Shown piece after piece: positions 1,087-24,628 of a stretch of DNA of 35,000 nucleotides (the first letter of the stretch is position 1; each line of letters opens with the position of its first letter). Below the pieces are notes generated by a model. The model saw only the letters and a list, made by a program, of their open reading frames with translations, was not told the DNA's origin and did not search any database. A program made the position numbers and the translations under genes. This stretch comes from Chromera velia (Eukaryota; Sar; Chromeraceae): the NCBI GenBank assembly GCA_018398765.1, contig JAHBMJ010000581.1, positions 7,501 to 42,500 on the forward strand. The letters run 5' to 3'.

Positions 1087-1556
1087 ATGTTGGCGTCTAA
1101 TCAGAACTCAGGCCTTCTGCGTGGTCTGAGATGTGAGAACCGTTCGAACTCGACGGTCCCACAGAAGGGCTCTGATGCTACAGGATCAGAAAGTGAGAAG
1201 TCAACTCGCGATTTGATGCAGCAGTCTCGTCATCGAGTGAAAGAAGGGAATCCACTTCTCGGCGTCGCCATGGGACTGAACCAGACGATGAGAAAGAAGG
1301 GCACAAACTCGGTCATGGCCGAGGCTGGTTCGTGTCACTCTCTTTCTCCCTCTCCTTCTCCCGAAGCTCCCAAGTACCCTCTGAATGGGGTGAATGGTGA
1401 GGGAGGGGGAAGGGGGGCGTCTTCGCCCTCTGGTCCTTCGGATTTTGCCAAGTGGAGGGACAGAGAGAGGGCACAGAGAGAGAACGGGGCAGCTTCCCAT
1501 CCGAGGTCAGGTGCCATGAAGGAAGGAAGGAAGGGATGAGTGAGTGAGTGAGTGAC

Positions 1557-1591
<35 letters not shown>

Positions 1592-2242
1592 TGGCTCTCC
1601 GTGTGTGTGCGCGTGTATGAACGAAAGTGAATTTGTGCGATGTTGCAGCCGCGAGATGTTGAACGAACTGCCTTCTGCATTACTGGAGGAAAGGGATGCG
1701 CCGGATGGTGAGCCTGTGGCCTTTCCCTTCGGCTGCCCTGCCCCGGCATCTAGGTGCAGATCCTCCAACCCGACTTTCTGCCAGGGTGCGATCTGTCTGT
1801 ATCTGCGGTGTACGTTTTGTTTCACAGCGTCCGGATGGTTTCTTGGAAGTTGCTGGTCGCTCTGCATCTTTCCATTCCGGTTTTGTGTCCCTCAATCTGT
1901 CCCAGATTCGGTTTTTTTGTCGCACTTGCTTCCTTTTTTCACCTAGCTTCTGCTGAGCGTGTTTGTGCAGGTCTCCGTAGTGGGATGAATGACTGGGCGA
2001 TGGCACGACTGCTGAGCGAAGCGGAGAGGGAACGGGACCGAGACAAGGAAGGTGCATGGGCATCGCAACACCCACTGTCAGTCTTCATTTCGCCGAAGTT
2101 CTAGGCAGAAAGTAAAGTGAGTTGCGGCAGGTCAGAAGACTGGCGAGGGCTGGTCAGACAAAAAGAAAGACCGCCCGCAAGAGAGAATCGGAAACGGGAA
2201 ATCGACAAGAATTCAATAACAGTCAGAGTGGAAAGCAAGCAG
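1087..2242 (+). other. 5' exons of the giant gene
   Basis: The ATG at 1087 (MLASNQNSGLL) opens exon 1, which ends at 1505 if the donor is GAG|GTCAGG. That choice leaves two bases, which join in frame to the exon at 1649 (REMLNELPSALLEERDAPD). That exon ends at 1707 before GTGAGC and joins in frame to 1971-2051 (GMNDWAMARLLSEAERERD). A further candidate exon, 2109-2242, would end at a very strong donor (CAG|GTAAGAG) and be open in the right phase, but it needs an intron of only 57 bases before it. Without it the protein could instead terminate at the TAG at 2102. The intron at 1506-1648 carries a TG microsatellite. Confidence 0.5.
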
Positions 2243-2647
2243 GTAAGAGACCCACGCGCAACTTGAGGGGTGATCAGTGATGGTTGCAAGAGGGCCATCA
2301 AATTCAAAAATGGAAGACTCTCGAACTTGCTGACCGTGGCAAGAAATGTATGAGGTTCTCTTCCCACCCCCCACCCCCGCCTCCTATCCGTCCTCCTTTC
2401 ATTGTGTATGTGTTTCAGTACGGGGAACAGCGAAAGCGACGTTTCTGTCCTCCGATACCAGAACCAGGAGCTTCGGCGGCTTGTCGATCAGAAGGATGCT
2501 CAACTTTCGGCACTCATGAGACTTCTCGGTTGGTGGTTTCTCTGGCTGGTTGTCTCTTTCTTTTCTTCTCTTCTCTTTGCTTCTCTCTCTGCCTCTTTGT
2601 TTCTTTCTTTCTTTCTTCCTTCCTTCCTTCCTTCCTCCCTTTCTTTT

Positions 2648-2685
<38 letters not shown>

Positions 2686-5287
2686 CTTCGATAGGCCCGT
2701 CTTCCCATCCCTCCCTTCTTCCTGGCTGGACTTTCTCTTCCGATGTTCTTCCTTTGCCCTTCCGCCTGCTTCCGTTGCGACGTGCTGTCCTAGAATTTCT
2801 ACTTGTCTTTACAACCCTTTGCCTGTTCCGGGACTTGTCCCTCCTTCCTGGTTGTTTGACGCAGCCGAAAATTGTGTCATGTCTGAAGATGGCCGTGCAA
2901 AGCTGTTGGCAGCAAGTATGGGTGGCCCTCTGTCTGCGTCCGTGGGGGGGGTTCACAACCCCCCTCGTGGGCGTGCGTCTGGGGGAAACGGCCAATTTGT
3001 TCGCGATCGGGAGAGGGAGAGAGGGTCGCCAGACAGGAGAGGGGGGGGCATGCCGACGGCAAACGGCTACCCATCTTTCGTGCCTGCGGCCTCTTCCTCC
3101 CGCCCCCATGCGCACGGGCACATCCCCGGTACTGAAGACGTTGAGAGAGAAGTCCCGGAGGGTGCCGAGCATATTAACGGGGGGACTGCAGGGGTTGCCT
3201 CACCCCTAGGGCATCACCTGAGATCTCCAGGTCGTTGGGGGGGGAGGGATGAGGAGGGAGAAGATGGAGTTGTTGGAAGTGGTTCTCCCGGGGGTGCGGG
3301 TCCTGTATCGGGGATCCCCAAACTTCCCCCTCCAGCCGCAATGTCTCTTCAAACGCACCCTGCAGCAGCAGCCGCTTCAGGATCTGCAGCTGTTCGGGGA
3401 CAGCCCCCGATGTCATTTCACAGCGGGGGTCCCGTTGCGGGAAAACAAAAAAGCACAATTGGGGGGGGCGCTGTAAAGGGGGGGACGCAGCCTGTGGAGG
3501 CAGAGACCCTTCAGTCGTCCCCTACACGCGGTGGTGTGGCGACAGGGGGCGCAGGTGGTGCATCAGTCGCCCCCCAGCAACGTTCGGGTCGCGGGGGAGA
3601 TATGGGGGGAAGGGAGGACGAAATTGATAGAGAGAGAGAACACAACGAATTTATTGGTATGGGAAGTCCGGCACTGTCCATCACCAGTGCCGCAGCCACT
3701 GCAGGCGACCGTGATCTGATTCGTGGATCCGCGGGTGTGGCTGGTAGGGGGATGATGGGCGGGTCGAGTGAGTGGGAGAATGAGCATGAGGAGGAGGAGG
3801 AGGAGGAAGAGGACCTCGACGAAGAGGGGCCTCCACATACACATGCAGTCAGGGCATCCAACGGGGAGCCCGTGCAGGTGCAGCAACTCCACACACACGC
3901 ACACACACACGGGTCTCTGCCTGCGAGTGGGGGGGTGGATAGGCCGTTTGCAGGGACAGACACAGGGCCGCATGTGGCTGTGAAGACCAATCGGGTGGAC
4001 AGTGGAGAGGCGGTTGCAAGTGGTGACAGTGAGAGGGGCTTAAGTGAGGGAAGTCAGGGTGGGGAAGCCGAAGACGGGCTCGGGCTTGATAGAGCAGAAG
4101 CAGACGACGGTGAGTGTGGGTCGAGAGGTGTCACGTTGAACGATGTGTTGAAAGTCCGGGGCGTGTCAGTATCTGCGACTGCTGCGTCGAACTCTTCTGA
4201 TTCGGACGTTGCCTCCGCCTCTGCGTCTGCCTCCAAACGCCCAGTAGGGGGCGTGGCGGGGGGGCGTGTACGTCGCAGCATCAGTGGGAGTTTTACTCCA
4301 GAGCGCGTGACTGTGAATGCGCTCCATGCCCACTCTTCGTTCTATCGGATGGCTGAGGATTCATCTGTGGGTGCAGCAGGAGAAGGCAGTCACGCTCTGA
4401 ACGGTTTCAGAGGCCCTGAACAAGAGAGGTCTGCATTTGCTGCGGCTGCAGCTGCTGCGTCCTCTTTGTCCACAGGTGCTGGTCCTTCCCGGGCCTTCCA
4501 GCAGCAGCAGTTGCAGCAGCAGATCTCGGCTCGACACGCCGCCATTAGAGAAGGCACAAATGGCCCAGACGAGTTCCTTCCCTTCGGTCAGCAAGCCCCG
4601 AAGACTTCGGCCGTGGGGGGTTGGAAAGGATACACAGTAGATGCCTCTGGCAGGAATGGGCCCAGTGGTGCCGTCTCGTCTGCCTTTGCGACTGCAGAAG
4701 TTCTTGCACGCACAGGAGGGCTGGCTCGCGGTCTCACATCTTTGCAAAATGACAGGGGTGCAGAAGGAGACGGCAGGGGTGCTACCTCGGCGGCTTCGGT
4801 CGCTTCAACCCGTGGAGGCAGCTCCACTCATCTCTCCCTTCCCTCTCAGGCACAACACGTGAGAGGCAAAGCTCCTTCTGAGCTGCGCTCTCTGCCTCTG
4901 GGTGGATGTGCAAAGGGGGGAGGTGGCACCGAACAGACAGCCCCTTTCGCTGGACCTTTCGCTCGAAACTTTGGCTCATCGGCTGCCCCCACAGGTAGTA
5001 ACGGGGCCGGAGGGGAGAGGGAGAGGAGCTCTCCATCCGTTATCCCCCATACCACCTCAGTGACAGCCCCCCACGGCCTCGGCCTGCCCTCTTCGGATGT
5101 CGTCCCACCGGCAGCCTCTCAGCAGCCTGTGGATGAAAACCCGGTTGCAGATTCACTCCACTCACCCTCACTCTCTCTGAGACCCCCCCCGCGTCTCGGA
5201 CAGGCTCAACAGCAACAGGGTCAAGTCTCTGTTCCGGCAACTAGAGACACATCCACAGGTCTGTCTCGCCGCTTGCGTGTCTGCCTG

Positions 5288-5319
<32 letters not shown>

Positions 5320-6880
5320 TTTTTTCTTTCTTTTCTTTCTTTCTTTCTTTCTCTCCTTCTGAGTCTGTCCACCTTTCTTGACCGCCTTTCCTCGTTCTTA
5401 AACCTCTGGCAGGCAGACGGGCACCTAGACCGTCTCTGTGTTGTCTTCTTCCTTTTTCCGGTGTTGCAGCAAAAGGCTTTTTCTTCATTGCGTCATTCTC
5501 TCTGGTGGTTTGGTGCGTTGACATCTGCTGATCTTCGATTTCCATTCACAACCTCCACCGGTCCCCGAAAACAGTCTCCTTCCCTTCTTTCTCTGATACT
5601 CATTGACTCCTGACTGATGCAGGAGCCGTGGAGGTGTCTGCAGAGGCCCCTGCCCTCTCTCAGCAAGCTCACCAGTCCCAGCAGCCGTCCCTCAACGCCG
5701 CCACAGCCACACAAACCCACCAACACCAGCATCTGCTGCAGACTCAAACCGACTCTGCAGACTCGACACGCAGACCTGTAGGGGGCCATGCACAGCAGCA
5801 GCAGCAGGCACAGCTGTCTGCTTCTGTTCCACAGCAAGCCAGCGCATCTCATACCTCAATTCCACAGCTGCACACTGGCCGAGAGAGGGAGAGAGACAGA
5901 GATTTTGGAGATTCTTTCCAGCAGCATCTCCCCCCTCAGACTCAAACGCGCATCAACGCGTCTGATGACTACGCACGTCATGTTGAGTCTGTTCAAGAGC
6001 AGCTCCTTGCGACAATCCGCCGTGAGAAAGAGCAGAGAGATCGCATGAAGGAGAGAGGACTCTTGATAGAACGCGAAAAAGAGCGCGAAAGAGAAAGGGA
6101 GAAAGAGATGGAGCGCGAGATGATAGCAGCTGTGGGTGGACGTGCCCCTCACGCCTCTAAGACACAGCACCCGGCGGCGGAAAATCCCACCGCCGACGAA
6201 GAACTTTCTGATCCCCATCAGCAACCCAACAACCGCCCTGCCCAAAGTGCAGACTCTGTCGGTGCTGTCAATGGCGACCGAGACCCGACAGGTAGTTGCG
6301 GGGCTTCAGACATTCGCAGCCACATCGCCAGAGAGAGGGGGCGGGTTGACAGGGTGGGTTTTGGGGACGAGGAGAGGGAAAGAGAAAGAGATCGGGCCGC
6401 TGCGACTGGGAGCGGCAACGTGGGTACCCGCCCTCCTCGAGCCACACCAGGCGGCGCCCCTTCCCTTCAGAGAGATAACTCAGCAGCTTCCGATGCCGCT
6501 GTTGCATCCGAAAAGGAAAATGAGAGTCTGGGGGGACAGGAGGAGGAAGAAGAAGAGCCCCTGATGCCGTTGCAATCAAGGCGTCTGCTTCAAGGCGACA
6601 ATCTCTCTTCAGCATCAAAGGACGCCAAGCACGGATCTGCCGAGATGCTCATGTCCTTCATGGACAGAGAGGGCGGGAGGGGGCGACCGCGGAGAAGCAG
6701 AGACGATTCGAGCTTGCGTGCAGCGAAGGTTGGTTGCATGTTCTCTTACTCACTCACTTACTCACCCCTAATATGAACTCTCCCTTTCACATGAATGTCT
6801 GCGTGAATCCACCGACTGGCCGACCGACCGACCGACCACCCCCCAGGATCTCTCTTGTTCGTCTGCTCGTTCTATTTGCA

Positions 6881-6915
<35 letters not shown>

Positions 6916-9900
6916 GTCGTTTCATGATTCCTCTTTTCGAACAAATCTCCCTGCTGTATTTCGCTTCGACACGTCCGTTTCCCTGCTCATCAGTGTGTGC
7001 TCCTCATTTTCTGTAATTCACTGTTGTTTACCCTCTCTTCATTTATTCACTTCTCCTGTCGCGACGACTTGCTTGCAGGGTTCTGTTCAGAGCGAGGGGG
7101 CGTGCGGGCAGGAGCGGGACTGCCTCTCGATCTCCGGCTCTGAGACTCTTTTCTCGGAGACGGCCGCGGGTCGCTTGGCCAGATACGAGAGGAAAGAGCG
7201 GGGGGGCGGTCGGGGGGGGTCTGGGGATCTTCCTTTGACCCTCCCGCTCTCTGCTCTGAAGCAGACCCGTCAGCCCTTTCTTCCCTTGTCGATTGGAGGG
7301 TCTGGAGGGCAGCAACGGGAAAGAGAGAGGAAGACAGGGCCTGGCGGCGGTGTCGGGAGCATGGGGGCACCCCCCAGCGGGGGAGCAGCGCAAGGCCAAG
7401 GAGGTCACGGAGAGCTCCGCGGAACAAATAGCGCAGAGGTGAGTGAGTTGGGGGCATCGAAGACGGTAGTGTGTCAACTTTTTTGTTTGTTTTCCTGCTG
7501 TGTTTGTGTTGTACGATTCATCCGACTTTTACGAATGCTCTGGTAATCGGTTGATCCGTCCGCGTCTCTGGCAGATTTGATCGGACTGCTCTGCCATTTT
7601 TTCTCTGGAACAGATGGTGCAGTGAGAATTACAGGAGAAGAGAAAAGTGACCGCCCCAGCCCATGAAGATTCGACTCCTGATTGAAGTCGACCGACCCAA
7701 TGACTGCATGTGTGTGTGTGTTTGTATCTCTGCAGGACATTGACCGAGCTATGGCGCAGCTCGATTCCCTGTCGTCCTTTCTGGACTCTCTCGTTGCAAA
7801 TGATGGGGGGGGCAAAGGGAAACAACAACAACAGGGGGGAGGGGCAAAGGAGAGGGAAAGAGAAAGAGAAAGACGGGGTGAGGCCACCGGAGTTGCAGCG
7901 GCTGCAGGTGTCGGTCCGCCTGTGCACTCTTCAACAGCTCCCTCGAGCCTCCCTTGGGTCAGTCCCCCCCACACTTCTCGAGGGTCGCGGCCTTCTTCCC
8001 CTGCCGAATCCCGCTCTGGCCCCATGAGGGCGAGACAACAGCAGCAGCAGGGGAATGAAGACAGAGAGAGGGCTCCTGCTGACCACCACACGAGCAACGG
8101 TCATGCAGGAGCAGGACGAGAGAGAGAGAAGGAAATGATGGGAGACAACGCCCTTCAACCGCAGGCACCCAAATCTGATGCGGCCACAGACGGCGGCTAT
8201 TCCTCTTCGGCCTCCGCAATAGACCGGCGAGGTACGCCAGGCGTCCGCCCGCCTTCGTCTTTCCAGCTTCCCCGCGGTAGTTCTTCAGGTCACCCTCAAG
8301 CATCGTCTTCTGCCGCTCGCGGGAGACCTCAGGGCTCCTCTCTGCAACACACCCTCCCACCGCACCTAACGTCTGCTCCTGAAGGCCAACAACAGTCCCA
8401 GACCCATGATCCCTCCCGCCATGGAGGTTCTCTCTCCCACCCCTCCAGCAGCCAGATGCTAAAGGCTCCTCCTCCTCCGCCTCAGGGCATAGCTCTACAG
8501 CTTCTGCACAGCCAGCACCATCCACACGCGCAGCAGAGGAGACTCAGCCTCTCGGTGTCAGGGGGGGAAGGGTCAGAGGCCCCCGGAGGGGGTGCAGCTA
8601 CAGCGGCAGCAGCAGTGGCTACGGCAGCAGCAGTGGCTGCGGCAGCAGCAGCGGCACGGCAGCAGAGGCAGACACGGGATCAGGCAGCAATCCCTGTGTC
8701 GGTCTACGCCACCATCGACTCCCTCGGCACAGCAACTTCCGTCAGGTCTCCATCCGTTCTATCAGCCCACTGGGAAAGGGACAGGAACACTACGGCACCT
8801 ACGGGTGCTGTGTTGGGCGGGCTTGCTCAACTTAACGGGGGGGGGCCTATCGGGCTTGGTCGTGTGGGTGCAGGCCCACTCGGAGCAAACGTGAGCACGA
8901 CCACCGGCTTTACGGGGCCAACCCATGAAGTGGAAGCGGACGCGGACGCGCTCGCGCCTTCGCTAACAGCCTCCGCTGCAGCGACAGTGACGGTGCCCCG
9001 AGGCCACCCGCCCCCAACTCAGCCGCAGCAGCGCCTTGGAGCTGCCACTCTCATGGCACAACAAGCTCAGCAGCAACAACAGCAACAGCAGCAGAATGAA
9101 AGCGGGAGCGAACGAGAAAGAGAGAGGGAGCGAAGATCACCTCTTGCTACGTTCCCTCAAGGGGGCCGGATGCGAGAAAGAGAAAGAGAGAGGGATGAGC
9201 TTGCCGAAGTGGCAGATGGCAGCAGCATCAGGTCTCACCAAGCGACTGTCACGACCCCTTGTGCCGGCCGTTCAACTGACGAACTGCGGCAGTTGGAGGA
9301 ACGCGATGGGCCCTCGAGGGCCCAGCCGGGGCCCTCTGCTCCTGGTGGGGGCCCCGGCGCTTCTACGGGGGCCCAGTTCGGATCCCCGTCATTGCATGCG
9401 CTCGTGCACTCAGTCCAGCAGCAGATTGAGGACAACTTGGACTCCTCTCTCCTGTCCCAGTTAGGGTCCGGGTCCGACCGTGACCTTTCTGCGTTGATTG
9501 GAAGCGATCTAGAGGCCCTCGGAATTCGGGGAAAACTTCAACATCTCCGGGGGGTGTTGAACAGATACAGCGAGCTTGCTCGAATGCTCGCACCGCCTGA
9601 TAGCAGCCCGCCCCCCCAGCAGATGCCTTCCTCGTCATCCGGTGCTGCCGGTGCCCATTCTAGGTTTCCTTCTTCTTATCCTCTTCCTGCTGGCACAGTT
9701 CCCGAACAGCCCGCGCAGACAGGAGGAGGAGGTGGGGGGCAGGGGCAGCGACAAACCAACATCGACCTCTCAGATCCGGCAGTGGCACGGTTGGCACGGT
9801 TAAATATGTGGGGTGGAGGTGGGGGGACGACAGGGGTGCACAGAGAGCAGCAGCCTGCCCCCTCACAGACCAACAGGTTCCCTCTGCAGCAGCCGTCCAA

Positions 9901-12890
9901 CGGGGGGAATGGGGGAACGGGCAACAGATCCAGGCAGCCACAGCTGAATGGACAGGGGGGACGGGGGGACAGCAGATCCGAAGACGCACAGCAGCTCCCA
10001 GCCGCTGACAGCAGCCCTTCGAATGACAGAGAGGCTGCAGTGGCTTCTGCGGCTCTTTCCCGTCTCGGCTTGACGGAAGATTTCTTCATTTCGTCTTCTC
10101 GAGGAGAAGGACGGGGGGGATTCGCGAGTGCTCACCTGTTACCTTTCCTTAACGGAATGCGGCGCCCCTCAGCTGCAGTGTCGTCAGCTGCCGCAACAGC
10201 GGGTGACGGTGAGGTGAAGGACGACAGGGATGATGACGAGGAGGACGATTCTCGTGGGGGGTTTCGGGGAAGTGAGGGGGCAGGGGGGGATGAAAACAGA
10301 GAGCCCATGACAGTAGAAGAACGTCTGCTTGCACATGTGCAGATGAGAGGAAATGGGGGTGCAGGGAGGGGGGCGTTCCTCGGGGAGAGTGGACGGCAAA
10401 TGGGGTCATCTGAAAGGAGCACTAGCGGCTCCGCCCAAGCAGCAGTGCCTGCAGCAAGCCTCTTCCGTCTCTCCGAGCTGTCCTCCTCTCTCCAAGAACT
10501 TCTGCGACTGCGGGGGGACTTGGACCATTTGAGTTCCAGTCTCCAACACGGCCCCTTCGGTATTGGAGGCCGCGACCGCGACCGTCATTCGATCGAGGGC
10601 TTCCCCCCCTCCTCCGTCGGTGCACGTGCCGACGGGACTGATAAGACGCCTTCTGTTTCCCTGTCCTCTTTTTCGATCGGTGTGTGCCCCCTGGGGGACT
10701 CCTCTGCGTCCCCCCCTCCCGCAGGACTTCACAGCAGCACCGCAGCAGCAGCAGGCAAACTCCAACACAGAGAGTCCCCAGGAGCTGCCGTTGCTGCTGC
10801 AATGACATCACTCCCCGGGGAGGCGCATGTGAGGGGAGAGATGGATGCTGCCGCAGGTCCCCCTCGCGCTGCTGTGGCTGCTGCAGTCTCTGCAGCTGCA
10901 GCTGCTGCCCGTCTCCAGTCACAGCAGCAGAGAGGGGTGGGTGGGGGTACAGTGGGACATCCCCAGAAGCACGCCCCCCTGCCTGTGCGCATTTCCCCTC
11001 AGCTGGCACGAGATGAGCCCGTCAGCGCTGCAGCAGCAGCAGGGGCGGCAGCCAATGGAGGGAACATTGAGCACGACTGTGCCACTGCCTCCAGACGGTC
11101 GGGCCAAGACCGAGATAGGGACAGCTGTGGGGGGCCTGCTGCCTCCTCGAGGCAGAGGGACAGAGAGGGGTCAGGCACAGAAAGAGACAGAGAGCTGTCT
11201 GCGCAGGGTGGGGGAGAGAGAGGGGCTCCTCCGGGAGGGGTGTTGATTCTAGCACCCCACAGCGCTGCCGTGGGGGGAACGGGAAGTTATCCTGCTTTTC
11301 CCTCGCCTTCGGGTCAGACGATGCTTCATTACAAGAGTGGCTTTTCCACTCTCCCGTCCGGTGCAGACAGAGAAAGAGACAGAGATAGAGAACAAGAGAC
11401 TGAGGACGCACAGCGTGTTGATAGAGAGAGGGAAAGAGACCGGGACAGGGTCGGACGAGAGAAGAGAGAGAACGCGGGGGTGTCAGCTACAGCTCCGTTC
11501 CCTCCACCCCCCCTGGACCCCCCAGCATGTCGGAGTGCGAGTTGGTCTCCCGCCTCAAGTCCGCTCTCCCCCCAACTCGTGCACCCTCCTTTCTCTTCCC
11601 CACAGACGAAGCACGCCATCCCAGTACTTGGTGTACAGCCTGTAGACACAGACAAAGACATCAAAGTGCGCGGGGCCTATGCAGACCCCCCCATGAACGT
11701 CAAAGAAAGCGATAGGCAGTCCGATGCCTCGCGAGACGCTGAGGCTGTCCGCAGAGCCATGCAGGCGATTCCTAGTTCCCTGGGGGGCGTTGCAGCCGCG
11801 TTGTCTCAGGGCCCTGGACGGGCTGCGCGTGCGGAGAATTTTTCCCAAGACGGGGAGAAGGGAAGTGCCAGTCCCCACAGCGCTACCGAGCCTGGGGCGG
11901 CTTGTCTGTCTCTCTCAGGTAACCACCTGCAGGATGCCGGTGCAAGGGGATCCAGCAACCCCCGCGGGCTGCTCGGTTCCGTTGCTGAGGCTACGGGGGG
12001 TGTCGGTGAGCCTGACGGAGAGACCGACGGTGTGGGTGGTCTAGAAAAACACACAAGCGGTTTTGCGTCAGCAATGTCTGTTGCTGCGACAGGCGGTGGG
12101 TCAGAGGGGGGTGACTTCGATCTGCAGGAGCTTGCCCGCGTTGTTCATGGAGGAACCCAGTTGAACGAAGATGCCTACATTGCGCGTGCACGGGCCGCAG
12201 GTGTTCGGATTTTTGGAGCTACCGCGGAGGCTCCCAAATCTGGCGGCAGTTACCCCCTTCTCTCTCCCGCTATGTCGGCAGGAGACAACCCTGAGGGTCC
12301 GGGGGCTGCTGATCGTGGGGAGGTGGATGATGAGCGAGAGGAGGACGGGGAAGAGACAGAGGACAATGTAGCAAGTCTGGTGTGCGAGGATGGAGATGGA
12401 GAGGGAGATGGAGACGGTAACTTGTCCGAGAAGGACAAGACGGAACGCGAGGTGGAAGAGGAAGAAGAGGAGGAAAGGGAAAGAGAGGACGACCGAACCG
12501 CTGCTCAACCAGGAGCAGAGAGGAGTGTCAGTGTGACGCCTCCTGTCGTTCCAGGTTCGGGTGCTCTCTTTGACGGTATCCACACGTTAGAGACTCTGAA
12601 AGTGCAGGGGGAAGAGGTCATCAGAAAAGTCAGTCAGTCAGTCAGTCATTTCGCTTCTGCTGCAATCTGCAGTACGCTGCGCATTTTTGTTCTAATGGTG
12701 ACTACGTGTCTTTGCTTGCATGGCTTTCTGTCTGAATTCCATTCCTTCCCTGTCGCAGCTGTGTCGTGATGGAGTGAGTCGCTCTTTGTTCTTTCTTGCC
12801 TGCTTCCTCCCAGCTGCATGACCCTCCTTTCTCTCCTATGACCTCACTCACTTTCGACACGGCTGCTTTCGTCTCCTTCTGTGTATCGCC

Positions 12891-12923
<33 letters not shown>

Positions 12924-15817
12924 TTCCTTCCTTTCTTTCTTTCTTTCTTTCTTTCTTTTCTTTCTTTCTTTCTTTCTTTCTTTCTTGCCTTCCTCAGGCT
13001 TTGATGGATCCTCTGCGAGTCGGTCAACAGGGAGGGCCGTTTCTCCAAGGGGGTCTGCACCAGCACCAGCACTCTCACACCCACTCCCACTCAGCAGCTC
13101 ACGGGCACTCACTCGGGGGGCCCCGGGGAGCCCTTGGAGCGGGGGGAGGGCATCTGGAGGCGGATGCCGCAGCCCCTCCCTTCACGCGCACACCCTCTGC
13201 CCAGGCTGTTCCTGTCTCCGTTTCTGCCCCGATGCAGGCCGCTTTGCCGACCGAGTCCACCCTGTCCGCCCTCGGAGCAATCACTTCTTCCGTCGGCAGG
13301 CTGAGTGCCAAGCAGCCCCCGCACGGCCTTGCTGCTTCGGGTCGGGCAGGAGCGTCTATGTGGCAGCAAGCCATGCAGCAGGAGCAGCAAGCTAAGCAGA
13401 ATCAGAACGCAGTTGACGAAGAGACCGAAAGGGCAACGATAGAAAAGTTTGTCCGTCAGAATAGAGAGACGGGAGGTGAAGAAGAGTCGGCGGGCCGCTC
13501 TGTGTCGGCTGCGTCAGTGGGTGGAGGAGAGAGAGACTCGGCCAGCGATGCCTCTCGAAGGCGCCTGGTCGCAGAGGCCGAGGGGTCCCTGGGTGCTGAT
13601 GGGGGGGCGGGCCGGAGACAGGCTAGTGGGGAGAGTGATGGGGGGGGGCGGCCATCACCCGCCGGCGGCTCTGCCTCAGCAGCGGGGGCCTCGGTGGCTG
13701 CGAATGTCGCCACCTCAGCTTCCCTTTCTGCGTCTCTTTCCTCCCACACCCTGGCGGCCAGAATGGAGAATTTGCCCTCATCCCCGGCAGGCGAGGCCGA
13801 AGGAGCGGGGGCCGGAGTGGGGCACGTCATGCCCCTCAGTCGTCAGCGCCTCTCTCGGGCACCGTCCCACAACAGCAGCAGAGACAGAGGCAGTGAAAGG
13901 GGGAAGGAGATTCCCCCCCACAGCGATGCGGGGGCCTCCCAGGGGAGAGGGCAACCCCCCCGAGGTCTAAGCGAAGGGCTGTCAGAGAGATCCAATCGTT
14001 CGAGTGAGGCAGGGAGGGCCGGCCTTCCAGACACCCCCCCTCTCGGCCCTCACCCCCACGCTCTCTCTACCAGTCTCCAACCCCCCCCTGCCAGCTCTGG
14101 GGTTCATGGTGTGATCATGAGTCTCGCAGAATTCTCCTCTCAGGAGAAAAACGGAGGGGGAAAGGGCGGCGCCAGTGGGCAAGGACAAAGACAGGCACCT
14201 CCAGCCAGCGGTGTCCAAACAGTCTCTGTCCCTCCCTCCATCGCTGGAGGAGCAGGAGCAGGAGCATGCCCCAGCCTCCAGCAACTGCAAGCGCAGGCAC
14301 ACACAGGGGAAGACCCCCCTCCACTGACGCACGCAGTCTCTTCGTCACACAAGAGAAGACAGCAGTCCGGAGGGAACAACAGCGGGGGGGGGGACGCTGG
14401 TGGCGGCGCGTCCGCGTCTCCTCGTGCCAGCATTCCCCCCGGCATGGTGATGCCTGTGGCAGTGCCGCACCCTGACATGAGTGGGGGGGGGGGGCCTCCA
14501 GAGGAAGAGAGGGAGAGGGAAAGGGGCGATAGATGTCGTCTAGCTACTTCTTCATCTTGTGCGGATGCAGACGCGTGTGCCGCGGCTGTCGGTTCTTCAG
14601 GTCTCTCGACCATCACCCGTGGAGCCCTAGACCCCCTCCGCCCCCCGATGGACTCCTCATCAGGCTGTGTGCCTGCTGGATCTGAAGATCCAACAACAGC
14701 ACCGGCACCGTCTGCCTCAGGCCGCAATCTGCCTTCTTCCTCTTCTTCTACGCCCCCATATCCTTCTGGTGAAGGTCCCGAAAAGACAGTCGACGACCTT
14801 GGAGGGAGGGAGGGAGCAGTCAGAAGCGAGAGGGAGACATTCCCCCTTCCTCCGACCATGATTCACAACCACCTCCAGCAGCACAAGCAACAGCAACAGC
14901 AGCACCCCCACCCGGAGGTTGGTGGGAGAGAAAGTGACCGAGAACGTGAGGCAGAGACGGAACAGATCCTCAACCGTGTTCATCATCATCATCACGTCCC
15001 TCCCCCTCCCACCCACCCGCACAGAGGATCAACAGGGGTCCCCCTCCCCCTCCCCCCGCTGCCTGCAAGGTCCTCCTCACACCTTCAGCCGATCGTTTCC
15101 TCTTCTCTCAGAGGTCTCCCTACAGATCTCAGAGGGCTGGGGGACAGACTGAGTGAGGAGGCCACTGACACGCATGAATCCTCCTCATATGACGTCACAG
15201 CGCCAAGCAGTTCTTCTCTCCACCCTCCCACGGCAACCTCTTCCATGACGCCAGTCGCATCACTCACCCCCCACCCGGGGCAGCCTCCTTCCCCTTCCCC
15301 CCCGTCTGCAGGTGCAGACTCGTCCCTTCAGCAGGCTGACACAGAGACAGAGAGGGACGACGACGGTCTTGCGACTGTGCGTGCAGTGAGAGGAAGCCCC
15401 GCTGCCGGGGCTGACGACGACGAAGAGGACACCGACGCCGGATGGCCTGAAGGCCCCTCTCCACCACACGGAGAGAGGGAGGATCCGGGTGAGGATGGCA
15501 GGCTTTCCAGCAGTGTGCTTCAGTCGTCCAGACACAGAGGCATGAGCGCGTATCTACCTGAGGGCCAAGTGACTGCAGTGCAGACAGGCTCTCAGAACAG
15601 GTACACAGCCGAGACGGCCATTGTGGAGGAGGAAATGGAAAGTCATCAAAGGGAGGGGTCAGGAGGAGGAGGAGAGGGTCTGCTCAGAGGTTCCTCTCAG
15701 CAGCAGCAGGTGTGCGCGGAAGGAGAGACCCCCGAGGAAGAAGAGGAGGAAATTTCTAGAGGAGGGGGCGGGGGGGCAGCTGACAGTTCTGGGGCTGCTT
15801 TCGTTCGAAGCTTTTGA
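1087..15817 (+). CDS. Giant low-complexity protein, multi-exon, function unknown
   Basis: I do not recognise this protein. My exon model is 1087-1505, 1649-1707, 1971-2051, 2109-2242 (tentative), 2419-2528, 2865-5258, 5623-6728, 7079-7438, 7736-12628, 12759-12773 and 12998-15817, ending in TGA. That is about 4,100 codons. From 2419 onward every junction is GT-AG and keeps the frame, as do the joins 1505/1649 and 1707/1971. The join between 2242 and 2419 does not keep phase, so an exon or splice site there is wrong or missing. The product is rich in Ser, Gly, Ala, Gln, Pro and Arg. It has homopolymer runs of Gln, Ala, Glu and Gly, and arginine-glutamate and arginine-aspartate repeats. No signal peptide or membrane segment is visible in the coding exons. 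More ordered islands are listed separately. The one-way open frames of 2.4, 4.9 and 2.8 kb, with matching splice phases, make a real gene likely. Confidence 0.75.
1559..1588 (+). repeat. TG microsatellite in intron 1 of the giant gene
   Basis: About 14 TG units follow a short run of GTGA units, inside the intron at 1506-1648. Confidence 0.9.
2419..2528 (+). other. Exon encoding a short coiled-coil segment
   Basis: Flanked by TTTCAG and GTTGG, this exon encodes SDVSVLRYQNQELRRLVDQ followed by KDAQLSALMRLL. It is a heptad-like amphipathic helix of about 35 residues and one of few non-repetitive parts of the protein. It joins in frame (G plus CC gives Ala) to the exon at 2865. The opening resembles coiled-coil starts seen in Bre1/HUB-type proteins, but no RING finger is visible anywhere in the gene, so I do not assign it to that family. 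Confidence 0.6.
2599..2680 (+). repeat. Pyrimidine microsatellite (TTTC, TTCC, CT) in an intron of the giant gene
   Basis: An almost pure pyrimidine tract of about 80 bases changes from TTTC to TTCC to CT units within the intron 2529-2864. Confidence 0.9.
2865..5258 (+). other. Large exon of the giant gene
   Basis: This exon is an open frame of about 800 codons after an acceptor GACGCAG and before a donor CAG|GTCTGT. The product is Ser/Gly/Ala rich, with an acidic Glu run near 3788-3815, a histidine-threonine patch near 3835-3910, and polyAla and polyGln near 4435-4525. Runs of five to eight G residues on the coding strand are frequent and encode glycine. The last base pairs with the first two bases of the exon at 5623 to make a Gly codon. 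Confidence 0.7.
5287..5354 (+). repeat. CTTT microsatellite in an intron of the giant gene
   Basis: About 65 bases of CTTT repeats, interrupted by a T run, begin about 30 bases after the donor at 5259. Confidence 0.9.
5623..6728 (+). other. Exon of the giant gene with Gln-rich and Arg/Glu-rich parts
   Basis: After the acceptor GATGCAG the frame is Gln/His-rich. From about 5985 to 6130 it becomes a strongly charged helix-like stretch with repeated RERE patterns (HVESVQEQLLATIRREKEQR), which looks like a single long helix or coiled coil of about 50 residues. The exon ends in phase 0 at AAG|GTTGG. Together with 7079-7438 it forms a continuous frame. Confidence 0.65.
6884..6912 (+). repeat. CT microsatellite in an intron of the giant gene
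   Basis: About 14 CT units lie within the intron 6729-7078. They are followed by CGCAG, which could act as a secondary acceptor. Confidence 0.85.
7079..7438 (+). other. Exon of the giant gene
   Basis: This exon is exactly 120 codons between GCTTGCAG and GAG|GTGAGTGAG, phase 0 at both ends. It contains a small ordered-looking part, SETLFSETAAGRLARYERKE, followed by Gly-rich and Arg-rich low complexity. Confidence 0.65.
7736..12628 (+). other. 4.9-kb exon of the giant gene
   Basis: This is a single open frame of 1,631 codons, from the acceptor CTCTGCAG to the donor AAAA|GTCAGT. It begins with a helix-like DIDRAMAQLDSLSSFLDSL. PolyAla and polyGln tracts lie near 8600-8665 and 9060-9095. Ordered islands are a SAM-like segment (about 9379-9594), a Leu-rich helix pair near 10450-10560 (LFRLSELSSSLQELLRLRGD), and a segment at about 12112-12225 (DFDLQELARVVHGGTQLNED). 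An acidic Glu/Asp-rich region lies at about 12320-12490. Large exons with low-complexity coding are frequent in alveolate genomes. Confidence 0.7.
9379..9594 (+). other. Possible SAM-like helical segment within the giant protein
   Basis: The translated stretch contains SLLSQLGSGSDRDLSALIGS directly followed by DLEALGIRGKLQHLRGVLNR. The pattern 'acidic-Leu-x-x-Leu-Gly-Ile ... Leu ... Leu' matches helices 4 and 5 of SAM domains, where a typical form is DL-x-x-LGI followed by a basic helix ending in I-x-x-L. The first half of a SAM fold is not clear. It may be a diverged SAM domain or only a helical hairpin. If real, it would suggest self-association or scaffolding. Confidence 0.35.
12759..12773 (+). 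other. Candidate 15-base micro-exon
   Basis: Fifteen bases lie between an acceptor CCTGTCGCAG and a donor GTGAGTC. They encode Leu-Cys-Arg-Asp-Gly in phase 0. Both neighbouring exons (ending 12628 and starting 12998) are also phase 0 here, so inclusion or skipping both keep the frame. The joined peptide is EVIRK-LCRDG-ALMDPLRV. Confidence 0.45.
12891..12986 (+). repeat. CTTT microsatellite upstream of the last exon of the giant gene
   Basis: About 95 bases of CTTT repeats with an internal CCTT block act as a very long polypyrimidine tract just before the acceptor at 12996-12997. Confidence 0.9.
12998..15817 (+). other. Last large exon of the giant gene
   Basis: The acceptor TTCCTCAG follows a long CTTT intron tract, and the frame opens with ALMDPLRVGQQGG. 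About 940 codons of Ser/Gly/Pro/His-rich sequence follow, including polyHis near 14980 (HHHHH) and Gln runs near 14875. A helix-like part, ERATIEKFVRQNRETGG, lies at about 13426-13476. The TGA at 15815-15817 closes the frame. A donor-like CAG|GTGTGC at 15710 would allow splicing to downstream micro-exons instead. Confidence 0.65.
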
Positions 15818-18207: not shown

Positions 18208-18460
18208 CTCGGGTTGTCCTCAAAGCCTTGTTAGTGGCTTGGGATTTGGCGTCGCTAAATCTAGGATTTAACCCTCAATCATCATCATCATCAGTTTGCA
18301 TGATTATACTTTATTATCATCATAAAGTGTATAGTGTAGGCTTTCAGTTTCAAACTATAGGTTTCAAACTCTTCATTTTAATAGTTCTATATCTGATGTC
18401 TAAAGCTAGTTCATTAAGTTTTAAAAATAAAGTCCGGCCTTAAATTTAATAATTAATTAA
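18208..18460 (+). mobile_element. 5'-truncated LINE copy (3' tail only)
   Basis: About 250 bases nearly identical to 24691-24937, the 3' end of the full LINE downstream. They begin at GGGTTGTCC-like sequence, contain an AATAAA, and end in AATTAATTAA. The next bases are the 5' start of the full element, so two elements abut head-to-tail. This is what target-primed reverse transcription would leave if a new copy inserted at the tail of an old, 5'-truncated one. Confidence 0.8.
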
Positions 18461-18549
18461 ATTATGATAGACGTTCTTCCTCTTCTCCTTCTCGCCATGA
18501 GTGTGCGAATCTTCTCGGCAAGACAGCTCCACTCTTTGACCCTCTTGAC

Positions 18550-20640
18550 ATGCCAATCCCTTCAGCCCCTCCTCTTTCCTCCCTTTTGCATCACTCCCTT
18601 TCTTCACAATCTCCTGACGCTTGCTTGTCCACCTTGACTCCTTCGAAAACCCCTCCGCTCACTTCTTCCTTCCTCACTTTCTCTGATAACCTAACCACTC
18701 ATACGTCTACTCCCTGTGCTAGGCTTACGGCCCCTTTGCTCCCTTCGCTTGCAGGCATGTCTCTGCCCGCTGGGGTGGTATGCAGAAACAGATGGTCTAT
18801 GCTGGGGGAGGAAGAAGAGGAAGATAAGAGCACCAACGTGAGTAGCCAGTCTACTCAGTCTTCTCCTCACATTTTTCTCCATCCATCGTCTCTCCCCCCA
18901 CTTAGCTCCTGCCCTCCCGCATGGGGCTCTTGTCCGGTTTGGGATGGTTTGCCTTCTCTCCTTTTCTCTCCTCTTCCTCATTCTCCAGTTAAGGAATGCA
19001 TTCCGCTTTCCTCTGTGATTCCTCCCCCTGGCTTCATCCCGATGAGTGGGTGGGACGGTCTGGGGTTCAAAAGTGAGATGACAAGGAAAAAGGCAGCGAG
19101 GAGGAATAGATGGGCAAAAGATAGAAAAAAAGAAGCAAGAAGAGAATTAAGAAGGGCAAAGGGACAAGTGATTTCTAACGGTGCACTGAATACAGAATGT
19201 TTAGCTTCCCCCTCCCCTTCTTCCTCCCTTTCTCTCTCTCAATCTTGCCCGGGTCCTTTCCTTGCCGTCTCTTGTTCGTCTTCAGATTCATGTTCTTTTC
19301 CTTCCCCCACCACACCCTCTCCAGCTCGCTCTCTCCCGCTTCTTCCCCCCTCCCCTATGAACTGTACGTGTTTGCTGAATGATACGTCCTTTCCATGTGT
19401 TCCTCCGTGTCTCTCTCTCCCTGTTGCCTCTCAGTCCGACTTTGCTGTTCCTGCTCCTCTTCCACCTGCCTCCCTTCCATTTCCCCTCACTCCACCTCCA
19501 TTGGCACCCCCTCCTTTTTGCTTCTCCCTGTCCTCTCTGCCTGTTGTTCAAGCGGCCTGCGGACCAAGCTACGATGTTCCTCTTGGACCAGGTGCTTCTT
19601 TCTTCTCCTCAGCTTCCTCTCTCCCTCTCCCTCGGAGTCCGCCTATCTGTTCTTGTTCTGCTTTTTCCTTCCTACCCCCCCCGTAGAGAGAATATGGAAA
19701 GGGGGAGCAGCAGTCGAACAGTCAGGCCTCAGGTAGCAAATTGGGGGATGGGGAGAAAAGTAAACGAAGAAAGAGATATGATGCAAAGGAGAGAAATAAA
19801 AAGGGAGAGAAAGGCAAGGAAAAGCCCGACAAGCAGGGCCGCAACAGACGGGGGGGGGATGAAGAGAGATGTTGTAACTGCAAGGCCTCTGCAGGCGGAT
19901 GTTGCCTGTTATCCAGATGCTCATGCGCTAGAGGGTCGGAATCTTTCCCAGCAAGACCCTGCGTCAATTGCGACTGTTTTAAAAAGGGGTGCTGCAATAA
20001 CCCCCTAAATGGAAAGAGTCTCAAATCTGCCCCTCGATGGGAGCTGCGTGAAGATAGACAACAAGAAAGAGAACGCCGTAGGAGGAGACATGAGCGTGAT
20101 TTTCTGTCCTCGCCTTCCCTCTCTTCCTCTTCTTCTGTCTCTGATTCTTCCTTCTCTTCTTCTAGATCTTCTGATGATAGGGATAAGGAGGACCAAGCCC
20201 TCATTCATAGAGGCTCACGCTCTCCTACAAGAATTCGTGCAATGAGGGGCGGAAAAGGAAAGAGAAGAGAATATAATTTCTGGAGGAGGGGCACTTCCGA
20301 CTTCGCATGGATAAGCGCAGATCAACTAAAGAAAGACGAGAAACGTCTGGTGTGTGTCTTTTGGGCCGGTCGCAGGGAAGTATGCAGACTCAAAAAGTGT
20401 GAAGACCGACAAAAGCGTCATGCAGATTCTCTTTCCAACCTTCTTCCCCCTCCAGTTGCAGTGTCATCGTCCTCCTCCTCCTCCTCCTCTTCTCCTTCTT
20501 CCTCATCCTCCTCCTCTTCTTCTTCTTCTTCTTTTTCTGCTTCTGCTTCTTTTTCTTCTTCCTCTTCTGCTTCGGCTTTTGCATATGCTTCTGCTTCTGC
20601 CCTACCGGTGCGCCCCTCTGCAACCTCTTCAATCCCTTAA
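18550..20640 (+). pseudogene. LINE ORF1 (low-complexity plus CXC-like cysteine-rich region), one internal stop
   Basis: One frame runs from the ATG at 18550 (open further upstream to the tail junction) to a TAA at 20638-20640, broken only by a TAG at 19684-19686. The first 380 residues are Ser/Pro-rich, with a basic KKAARRNRWAKDRKKEARRE stretch near 19084-19155. After the internal stop comes a second basic region, then a cluster of cysteines at about 19865-20012 (RCCNCKASAGGCC ... RCSCARG ... CVNCDCFKKGCCNNP). A charged region and a long Ser run (about 20465-20590) follow. ORF1 proteins of LINEs bind element RNA, and the basic and cysteine-rich parts fit that role, though the function here is inference. 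Confidence 0.7.
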
Positions 20641-20719
20641 TGGGTCTTTCCTCTTTCCTTCTACATCCTCATCCTCCCACAATGTTTTCTCTCCTTCTTA
20701 CGACGTGAGGTCTGGTCTT

Positions 20720-23700
20720 ATGGCTTCAAAAAGAAGGAAACTCACAATAAAAATGGTAAATGTGGGGGGACTGGGGTCACGCATATGAAATAAGACTCTC
20801 GAGCGGTGGCTGGCCGCTTGCCAGGCAGACATTGTGGTGTTGACTAAAACGAAGTGCCCCTCCATGCCCGTAAGAACATCTACTCACACAGGGCATAATT
20901 TCGATCACTTTGAGTGGTTGAGAAGGAAAATCAAAGCGAAAGGGTCGAGAAGGAAAGCTGCAACCATCGGGGAAGCAAGGACAGGGGGTGTATGCATCCT
21001 AGTCAGGAATTCCTTAGTTCATGAACTGCAGCCAAGGTGGGAGCTGGTGGGTCAAAATCTGGTCTGTCTGTCAGTGAATGTGCCTTCTCCCTCAGAAGGG
21101 GGGGAGTCAGCCACGAGAGTCCTCCATGACTTCGGTGTGTACTTTCTACCTAGAGGGTCTGACCTGAGACAGAGAGACAGGGAGCTAAGAGACAGAGAGA
21201 GAGAGGGTGTGATCGATGCACTGTGTCAGGTACCTCTCGAGGATTTGCGCATCCTAGTTGGGGACATGAACGGCAAGCTGGGAACTCAGGTGCCGGAAGG
21301 GCTAACTTGGGAAAGAATGCTATGTCCCACTGATGAAAGCAGAGAAGAGAACGAAGTTGATGCTTGTAAGCCCTCTTAATTGTCAGCCTGCAGCCATGGC
21401 AGTCAACCTGACGAGCAAGGAAATTGGTTGATCCGTCTTTATGAACGCTCTAACTTAATTCCTCTCCACGGCCTGTCCTTGAAATGTGAGAGGCTGGGTG
21501 TTGATGTCTCCTTTCCAGGCCCGTGCACCTTTTTTAAAGCAGGAGAAGAGCATTGATCACTTTTTTGTAGATCCTTTTCTTTTGATAGCCTGGTCCTCTG
21601 CCACTTCAAACCTGGAAGCGGACTTCGTCCCTCAACATGTTGTTCTTTCTCTTTCTTTTTTTCTTGATTCATCTCCTCCCCCTATGTCTTCTGATCCTCC
21701 GCATGCCTCCACGGGCGAAAAGAATTTCTCTTTTCTCCCCCTTCTCCTCATTGTTAATAGAACTTCCTCGGTGACTGATGATGAAATGATTCCTTTCACC
21801 AGAGCGGTCCTACCGTTTTCTGAGACAGTTTTTCCCAGCCTGTTCGACAGAGGGGTAAACGAACTGCGTGAAGGAGGTCAAGTTGTTTCCCCTATCCTAC
21901 CTCCCTCTGACCTACCACCCTTTCCCCCACAACCACCTCCCCCTCAGAATGCTCCCCCCCCCAACTCTCTCAGCAAGGCTTCTTATCTTGACCAATTGGA
22001 ACGGTTGAGTCTTTCTTGGGAAGAAAGGCTGGCAGACAGCAAAGTGGGTGCAGTGGTAGACGGGGGAAAGGCATTCAAGAAAAGAAGACAGTCTGGGAGA
22101 AAGCAGAGCACCTGTCAGGCTTGGTGGGACCCTCAATGCTGCCTGATTCATTTGAAGGTGAAGGAGACAGAGGAAAAGGCAAGACATGTCCCGAACCCTT
22201 CTCACCTTCTGTAAAAAGAATGTGTCAAACTGAAAAGGGAAAGAGCTCGACTGTTTGTAGCAAAAAGGAGTAAGCTTGAGCAACAGACAGCAGAGAGACT
22301 AGCTAGAGAAGCAGCAGTTGACCCCTCGAAAGTTTGGCAATGGAACAGGAAAATCAAAACACAGAGGGGAAGGGATAATAAACCCGCTGCATCTTCCTTC
22401 ACTCAGTTCTGGGCTGGGGTCTTCGATGGTCCTAGTCTTCCGCCTGCACCTGTTAGTCTGGCCTTCCCCCCTCCTTCTCAGCCCACCTTCTTCATACATA
22501 TGATTGAGGAAACAATAAAAAGAATTGACCTAAAGAAGGCGTTAGATTTGGATAGGGTTAGCCCCTGTCACCTCTCGTTATATTTTAGTTTTTCTCCTCT
22601 CTCCCGCTTGCTGCTCTTTGTCTTTTTTAGTTTGTTTCACCTTTTTTCTTTTTGGCCTGAACGCTGGAATGTGTTGCGCATTGTTCCCATCCCTAAGGGC
22701 CCGCCGAGTCTCGACTGTAACAAATGGCGCCCGGTCCATATTGTGGGGCTTCTAGGTAAGATTTTTGCTTTATTAATGGACTTAAAGATCAGGAGAGAGG
22801 TGAAAATTGACGAAAGGCAACTCGGCTTCAGACAGGGGGTAGGGACAAGGGAGGCCTTCGCTGCTCTGTCTTCGTTAATTTTTAGCTCCAAAAAGAAGAA
22901 GAGCCCTCTGATTGCCGCGTTTATTGATTTCAGCAAGGCGTTTAATACAGTTCCTCGGGTCAAAATGTTAGAGAGGCTCAGGGAGGAAGGAGTAAGCCAA
23001 GCCGATGTTTGGATAATTCATTCGATGTATAGTCAGGTGAAGGCTTGGGTGGATGGGGCAACAGAATGCTTTCCAGAAGGCGGAGGAGTAAAACAAGGCG
23101 ATCCTCTCTCTCCTCTCTTCTTTCTTCTTTTCATCAACAATTTGCATAAGTCTGTCACCTCCGATAATGAAAACAGGAATCAAAGCTCGGCTGGGAATAC
23201 TGATAGAGAGACTCCTGTCAGACTGTCTGACATTTTAATCAAAAGCATCAGGTATGCTGACGACCTTGTTCTGTTTGCCCACAGTGCTTCAGACTTGCAG
23301 AAACGTCTGTCTCGCTTCGAGGACTATTGTAAGGAGCACGGCCTGAAGGTGAATTTAAAAAAGACAAAAGTTATGCATCTCTCCTCCTCCCACCCCGACC
23401 TAGTGCCCCGGACCCCTTTTTTTTATGAAGGCAGACCAGTGGAAGCGGTGAGTAAACATAAGTATTTGGGCAACTGGGTTTTTGAGGGCGGGGACCTTAG
23501 TAAGACAGTCGAAGCCCGCATTGAGGCGGCAGAGAAGGTACTGGGGGCTGTGTTTGGTACTCTCTCTTCTTTAGACTTTGTTTCTTCCTTTTCTAAAATT
23601 ACTTTGTTTAAGGCCCTCTGGCTGTCAGTCGTGCTGTATGGACTAGAAACGATCCCACTGAGAAAGACAGATATTGCTTGCCTCGATGCTTTACAATTAC

Positions 23701-24628
23701 GTTTTGTTCGATGTTGTTTTGGTCTCTCTTATCACTCCTTTGTTTCGCCTTCCCTTCTCTCTCTCTCTCTCTTGAGCCATTCAATTCTCTACTTGGTAAG
23801 CTGAGTGAGGGCTTCATCTAATGCATCAAATTGATCGACCGTGCTCTACCCCGGGCAGTGTGGAATGAGTGCTTGGCTAGCTCGTGCAAACCCTTCGTTA
23901 AGACAGTAAAATGGCTGGCCGTTCCATTAGATTGCTCCCTTTTATGGCCTCCATTGCCAAGCACGGTGGGGGATAAGTTTAAAAGGAAGGGCAAGGGCAG
24001 AAGGAAAAGGGCGGCAAAAAAGATGGTAGAGGGTGCCTGGCTGTCCGACTGGTTGAAAAAAGAAACTGGGAACGTTAGAGACAGAGACGGAATTTTCCCC
24101 CGCCTTGCAGATCTCTTCCCTTTCCAGTCAGAAAATCCGACCAGAGAACGTTTGGCCATGCACCTTCTGTGTGAAAGGAAATGGCGTCCGAGAAGTGAAA
24201 TGATAGAGTGCAGTGTTGAACCTCTGCTAAAGAGTCTGCTGCAGTCCTCCGCAAGCTTCCGTATGCTTTTCAGGGCTCTCACAGAGGAGGATATAGATAG
24301 AACTCAACCAGAACGGCTGTGCAATAAATGTTTGTCCCCCTCGCGTATGATTAAAGATGAGGTTCATGTCCTGACAGAGTGTAAAAATACAGAAAGGGAA
24401 CGGAACAGGCTGAAAGAACTGTACGAAATTGCGAAGCAGAGAGCGCCCATTAACATAAGAATACAGATTGCACAACGCATTGCAGGTGCAACCGGGAGGG
24501 GCACTTCTGATAATAAGAAGAAAATGAAGGATATGGTGTTGCTGTTGTGTACAATCCTGCCTAGAAGCGGTTCCAAAGCTATAGCTGACTGTCTCAAGAA
24601 GGTGCATTCTGTCGATAAGGCAAGTTGA
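20720..24628 (+). pseudogene. LINE ORF2: endonuclease and reverse transcriptase, broken by stops and frameshifts
   Basis: The likely start is the ATG at 20720, 79 bases after the ORF1 stop. The endonuclease part includes KMVNVGGLGSRI, then after a TGA at 20786 ADIVVLTKTK, GGVCILVRNSL, FGVYFLPRGS, RILVGDMNGKLG and KSIDHFFVDP. The reverse transcriptase (about 22500-23700) shows RIVPIPKGPP, WRPVHIVGLLGKIF, RQLGFRQGVGTREA, AAFIDFSKAFNTVPR, GVKQGDPLSPLFFLLFINNL, SIRYADDLVLF with the YADD active site, and KKTKVMHL. The C-terminal part ends with a zinc knuckle. Lesions are TGA 20786-20788, TAA 21377-21379, a frameshift in the T/A run near 21532, TAA 22212-22214, a frameshift near the CT run at 23757, and TAA 23819-23821. 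Apart from these, the frames connect cleanly. Confidence 0.85.
24319..24384 (+). other. C-terminal zinc-knuckle motif of LINE ORF2
   Basis: The translation CNKCLSPSRM...DEVHVLTEC has the spacing C-x2-C-x11-H-x4-C. This is the usual form of the C-terminal CCHC motif found after the reverse transcriptase in many LINE ORF2 proteins. All four metal-binding residues are intact in this copy. Confidence 0.7.

Follow-up and report, generated by a model that had tools for sequence, protein, structure and literature searches.

The 35,000-nucleotide stretch of the Chromera velia genome analysed here (the window) comprises bases 7501-42500 of the 42,500-base contig JAHBMJ010000581.1, within an assembly of 4,040 contigs totalling 177.8 Mb (GCA_018398765.1), and sequence evidence supports the presence of one protein-coding gene spanning positions 1087-15817 of its forward strand. 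Nine exons, joined according to an inferred splice model, give a single open frame of 4,088 codons with one final stop—in agreement with an original prediction, made from the letters alone, as to the ATG at 1087, the TGA ending at 15817, the length of the product, and open frames of 2.4, 1.1, 4.9, and 2.8 kb, which correspond to exons of 2,394, 1,106, 4,893, and 2,820 nucleotides (Table 1). The product is mostly low in complexity and carries short runs of alternating Arg and acidic residues, in which codon variation is specific to the coding frame.

All eight inferred introns are of the GT-AG type and 143-369 nucleotides long, with G at the fifth donor position and CAG at the acceptor, the donor and acceptor sites having been chosen partly by eye with that consensus in mind. 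Matching splice phases had been taken to make a chance origin of the open frames unlikely, an argument that proved weak, because enumeration gave between 12 and 146 open GT-AG pairs in phase at each junction, 1 to 24 of which fit the donor/acceptor consensus. Since so many pairs are available, and since five possible ends of exon 1 hold the frame (yielding products of 4,030 to 4,088 residues), the exact exon ends are uncertain. Pooled, the inferred introns are pyrimidine-rich (35% purine) and the exons purine-rich (54%), with single introns ranging from 19 to 60% purine.

That this is one real gene and not a product of chance is nevertheless upheld by open reading frame (ORF) length, repeat placement, codon usage, and frame-specific variation. 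In 200 first-order Markov simulations per large exon, with the longest ORF taken over six frames, the longest simulated and observed ORFs were 398 versus 798 residues for exon 5, 322 versus 368 for exon 6, 507 versus 1,631 for exon 8, and 492 versus 940 for exon 9, such that the observed frames are 1.1-3.2 times the longest simulated ones. The frame remains open although the coding sequence (CDS) is studded with homopolymer runs of at least six bases, 42 of G and 25 of C. Furthermore, all five long di- and tetranucleotide arrays of the gene lie inside inferred introns, which make up 2,464 of its 14,731 bases, an outcome expected by placement alone about once in 7,600 (our own arithmetic); the exons contain two arrays, the first with a period of 6, 12, or 18 and the second with 1.9 copies of a 22-nucleotide period. 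Against a codon-usage reference of eight kinases from the same genome, the whole CDS gave a correlation of 0.86 in the model frame versus 0.58-0.77 in the other five, and the model frame was the best of the three forward frames in all but one of the six exons longer than 300 nucleotides, though only barely in exon 6 (0.66 versus 0.65). The exception, exon 1, showed no preference for the model frame (0.36 versus 0.51 in another frame).

Frame-specific variation was found in GA-like tracts and in the alternating Arg-Glu/Asp runs, by tests devised after the sequence had been seen. Eleven such runs of at least six residues occur in the model frame and none in each of the other five CDS frames; their shared presence in exons 3, 5, 6, 8, and 9 favours one gene. 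Control long ORFs, with overlapping shadow ORFs left in, contained four such runs in 13,454 codons. Arg-acid dipeptides number 211 versus 82 expected (2.6-fold), and Lys-acid dipeptides 34 versus 16. A CGN or GAY codon is present in 9 of the 11 runs, compared with 35 of 126 runs in a genome sample of 20 contig starts (200,000 bases, 50,774 of them N), and the runs are thus not pure GA. Because a pure GA repeat encodes Arg-Glu whichever forward frame is read, drift would favour none of the three. In nine GA-like tracts of the CDS, however, Arg or Asp/Glu is retained in the model frame at 41 of 55 codons that deviate from the pure repeat, versus 2 of 58 and 7 of 53 in the remaining forward frames and 578 of 2,323 in 105 sampled genome tracts with three frames pooled. 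Fisher P values for these differences were 3e-18 and 4e-14, with codons within one tract being non-independent, and the model frame was highest at all seven thresholds and in all nine tracts. Such variation shows selection on the protein in the GA-like tracts.

As for composition, the product is rich in Gly (13.2%), Ala (12.4%), Ser (12.0%), and Arg (8.1%), with 1.6% Lys and only 12 Trp, 20 Tyr, and 21 Cys among 4,088 residues, and the chain is predicted from this composition to be disordered. Its description as a mainly low-complexity protein was borne out, with 72.8% of 40-residue segments falling below 3.5 bits of entropy, versus a median of 39.4% in 23 non-overlapping control ORFs of at least 300 residues from the sampled genome stretches, two of which were equally low or lower in complexity. 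Perfect simple repeat accounts for only 6.6% of the CDS, and homopolymer runs are encoded by several codons. Such runs show somewhat less codon mixing than the sequence outside them for five of seven residue types, a pattern that slippage would give.

Ordered islands scattered amid the low complexity, which had likewise been proposed, were recognised as a probable short coil in exon 4 and, in exon 6, a probable charged helix (each by eye), together with three leucine-bearing islands in exon 8. Single-sequence structure prediction for the first of these three (over 9344-9643) gave low-confidence helices, with a mean predicted local distance difference test (pLDDT) score of 62.6 and a predicted template modelling (pTM) score of 0.33. 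The suggested profile search island by island returned no Pfam match for the three exon 8 islands, and for that at 9386-9595 no match among Protein Data Bank (PDB) sequences either. The same absence of a recognised family was seen more widely, with no significant Pfam match in exons 1-9 scanned in pieces, nothing significant in NCBIfam, and no significant match in PDB sequence comparisons that left out exon 7 (best E 0.29; none for exons 5 and 6). Weak Pfam lines to IL23 (E 0.067) and DM9 (E 0.14) and PDB lines with E values of 1.1, 0.94, and 0.29 were attributed to chance or shared composition; the last pairs an Arg-acid-rich stretch of exon 8 with the splicing helicase DHX15 and was not counted as evidence. 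The island at 9386-9595 has a SAM-like look, judged by eye, that was not supported, with no SAM_1 or SAM_2 profile match and no PDB sequence match; the locus is also absent among the genome's eight SAM_1 and nine SAM_2 matches (E up to 10), and viral contigs scanned with this island gave no relative.

Within the 177.8-Mb genome, no match other than itself was found for the N-terminus, for exon 9, or for either of two parts of exon 8. A search with exon 8 DNA recovered, besides the exon itself, five short matches (73-79% identity) that all cover one Arg-acid stretch. Exon 6 likewise recovered itself, along with three weak matches of 64-156 residues (E 2.8e-4 to 7.2e-4, 27-42% identity), two of which contain internal stops and all of which were taken as low-complexity matches. 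The gene is thus apparently single-copy, from a genome search that left out exon 5 and did not query exon 7 alone. It is an orphan only within the Pfam, NCBIfam, PDB-sequence, viral-contig, and own-genome searches, which include no eukaryotic protein collection. No title or abstract on this gene was found in searches of the Chromera velia literature on genome, low complexity, nuclear speckle, or intrinsic disorder.

Table 1. Exons, Arg-acid runs, islands, and repeat arrays of the inferred gene (window positions).
Feature	Position	Strand	Remarks
Exon 1	1087..1505	+	Starts with ATG at 1087, closely preceded by an in-frame stop; donor GTCAGG, with four donors before it that likewise keep the frame
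Exon 2	1649..1707	+	Small; frame rests on the join
Exon 3	1971..2076	+	ERERDRD run at 2024-2044
Exon 4	2419..2528	+	Leucines in a heptad-like spacing, probably a short coiled coil (by eye from translation)
Exon 5	2865..5258	+	2,394 nucleotides
Exon 6	5623..6728	+	1,106 nucleotides; highly charged probable helix at about 5946-6120 (by eye)
Exon 7	7079..7438	+	
Exon 8	7736..12628	+	4,893 nucleotides
Exon 9	12998..15817	+	2,820 nucleotides; TGA at 15815-15817; His-rich stretches start at 13025, 14852, 14936
RERERDRD run	5880..5903	+	One of the 11 Arg-Glu/Asp runs with at least six alternating residues
Other ten alternating Arg-Glu/Asp runs	Starts 2024, 3002, 6081, 6372, 7850, 9110, 9173, 11366, 11420, 14507		
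Ordered island in exon 8	9386..9595	+	Predicted all-helical, low confidence
Second leucine-bearing island, exon 8	10391..10621	+	
Third leucine-bearing island, exon 8	12026..12280	+	
(CTTT)24 array	12891-12986	.	Inferred intron 8
Other long di-/tetranucleotide arrays	1559-1588, 2553-2680, 5288-5360, 6885-6912		Inferred introns

The reading that we favour, and consider possible rather than probable, is that the protein, of about 4,090 residues, is a disordered intracellular scaffold specific to its lineage, with Arg-acid stickers, possibly belonging to a nuclear RNA-processing condensate. The probable short N-terminal coil and several helical islands would provide specific contacts, and the eleven runs along the chain would act as weak multivalent stickers, separated by spacers rich in Gln, His, Gly/Ser, and Ala. 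The runs probably arose from the GA repeats common in this genome and were afterwards retained by selection on the protein. Their preservation in a single frame speaks for a functional scaffold inside the cell over drifting repeat DNA. The most likely, unproven, site would be a nuclear RNA-processing condensate, with localisation and function both conjectural; it is the first candidate because of the published behaviour of alternating Arg-acid stretches (PMC9324279, PMC7671692). Arg-rich mixed-charge stretches of this general type direct human proteins to nuclear speckles; alternating (DR)50 goes to nuclear speckles (PMC9324279), and RBM25 reaches them via its RE/RD-rich domain (PMC7671692). 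Speckle targeting by polyhistidine, as described in PMC2644819, was not relied on, the chain containing only one run of five His. Of the roles offered by the original prediction, that of a scaffold or condensate-forming protein is compatible with the sequence, and that of an extracellular or surface protein is disfavoured.

Several points weigh against this scaffold. The runs total 86 of 4,088 residues and are each 6-10 long, compared with 100 residues in (DR)50, and their acids are mostly Glu, whereas PMC9324279 reports Asp with Arg to be effective and Glu and Lys to have limited effect. The same paper reports an alternating (DR)12 peptide that did not phase-separate and argues that alternation neutralises charge. 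RS and SR dipeptides are below expectation over the whole chain (54 versus 80; no local RS scan was made). By our own threshold the chain is 5.4% mixed-charge, and 7 of the 23 control ORFs have such stretches, with 5 exceeding 5.4%. The frame-specific variation proves coding constraint in the tracts, not a role of alternation, and the account concerns a gene known from its sequence, for which no homologue was found. A stronger version—that this free-living apicomplexan relative possesses a lineage-specific giant scaffold of nuclear RNA-processing bodies, not related by descent to SON/SRRM2, whose GA-derived stickers were fixed by selection on the protein—is rather doubtful.

An alternative that we regard as somewhat unlikely is that the gene is real and translated, with its length owing mostly to neutral repeat growth, the product being an orphan disordered chain that spaces or tethers a small number of helical islands and has no condensate role. 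The genome abounds in GA-type patterns (47,086 matches forward and 48,563 in reverse, a reversed control pattern giving similar numbers), so that the raw material of the runs is ordinary; other long ORFs are also low-complexity, the CDS holds the many G- and C-runs counted above, and codons are less mixed inside homopolymer runs. Neutral mechanisms have been reported for highly repetitive regions in Apicomplexa (PMC4770516). Growth of this kind does not readily account for Arg-acid runs held in frame with mixed codons, for the small share of perfect simple repeat, or for the use of several codons in homopolymer runs. A cytoskeletal, pellicle, or apical scaffold acting through coils and helical islands is decidedly unlikely. 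Pellicle scaffolds of alveolates are often low in complexity, and the probable N-terminal coil and exon 6 helix would suit such a role, but the coil-like pieces are short relative to the chain, and neither exons nor islands have a Pfam match.

It is quite improbable that the locus holds several separate genes, or frames that are long because of base composition. The gene model was built from sequence, its phases can be matched in many ways, and exon 1 codon usage does not favour the model frame; however, the frames exceed all 200 simulations for each large exon, the long non-triplet arrays (periods 2 and 4) are confined to inferred introns, an in-frame Arg-acid signature is common to five exons, and whole-CDS codon usage is best in the model frame. 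An extracellular or surface protein is very improbable. Its richness in Ser, Pro, Gly, and Ala would fit, but hydropathy (no signal-peptide program was used) showed a polar N-terminus and no hydrophobic or membrane-like segment except a polyalanine run, hence no sign of secretion or membrane insertion, and Cys is scarce.

Other features were noted around the gene. A divergent frame at 3-419 on the minus strand has possible membrane helices (by eye) and no Pfam match, and at the contig's left end another low-complexity frame (about 973-2200 of the contig, minus strand) adjoins a run of N. Downstream, a long interspersed nuclear element (LINE)-like retroelement lies at 18457-24628 on the plus strand; its frames, a reverse transcriptase frame (RVT_1, E 1.7e-30) and a weak endonuclease-like frame that fails the cut-off (E 0.0024), are separate and broken by stops, and it looks decayed. 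A cyclic-nucleotide phosphodiesterase exon (PDEase_I, E 2e-12) lies at 29572-29907 on the minus strand, and a 300-nucleotide direct repeat occupies 30971-31270 and 31388-31687 (92% identical, 417 apart).

If the favoured scaffold is real, it would illustrate how GA repeats in a repeat-laden genome become sticker motifs that a large scaffold maintains, and chromerid-like algae would gain a candidate for a protein that organises nuclear bodies. Scoring deviations from period-2 repeats in each frame, within one genome, is also a simple test that separates constrained low-complexity coding sequence from drifting repeat without the need for a relative.

Among known systems, SON and SRRM2, giant disordered nuclear-speckle scaffolds, are very long and largely disordered, with lengths varying among species (PMC7671692). 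The protein described here shares the very long and, judging from composition, mostly disordered chain. It differs from them in having no Cwc21-type spliceosome-binding N-terminus or other Pfam domain, and from them and SR-related proteins in that no RS-rich domain was evident from whole-chain counts, RS and SR dipeptides being depleted. A tested feature of each being absent, it was not assigned to the SR, SRRM2/SON, or SAM families. To Arg-enriched mixed-charge domain proteins it bears a partial resemblance, through alternating Arg-acid runs and an Arg content well above that of Lys; the runs, however, are dispersed along the chain, have Glu as their main acid, and fall far short of (DR)50 in length, and no RNA-binding domain was found. 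Finally, like the low-complexity orphan proteins of alveolates, it is repeat-rich and without a homologue in the searches made, but is set apart from them by its unusual length and by the clear frame-specific constraint in its repeat-like tracts.

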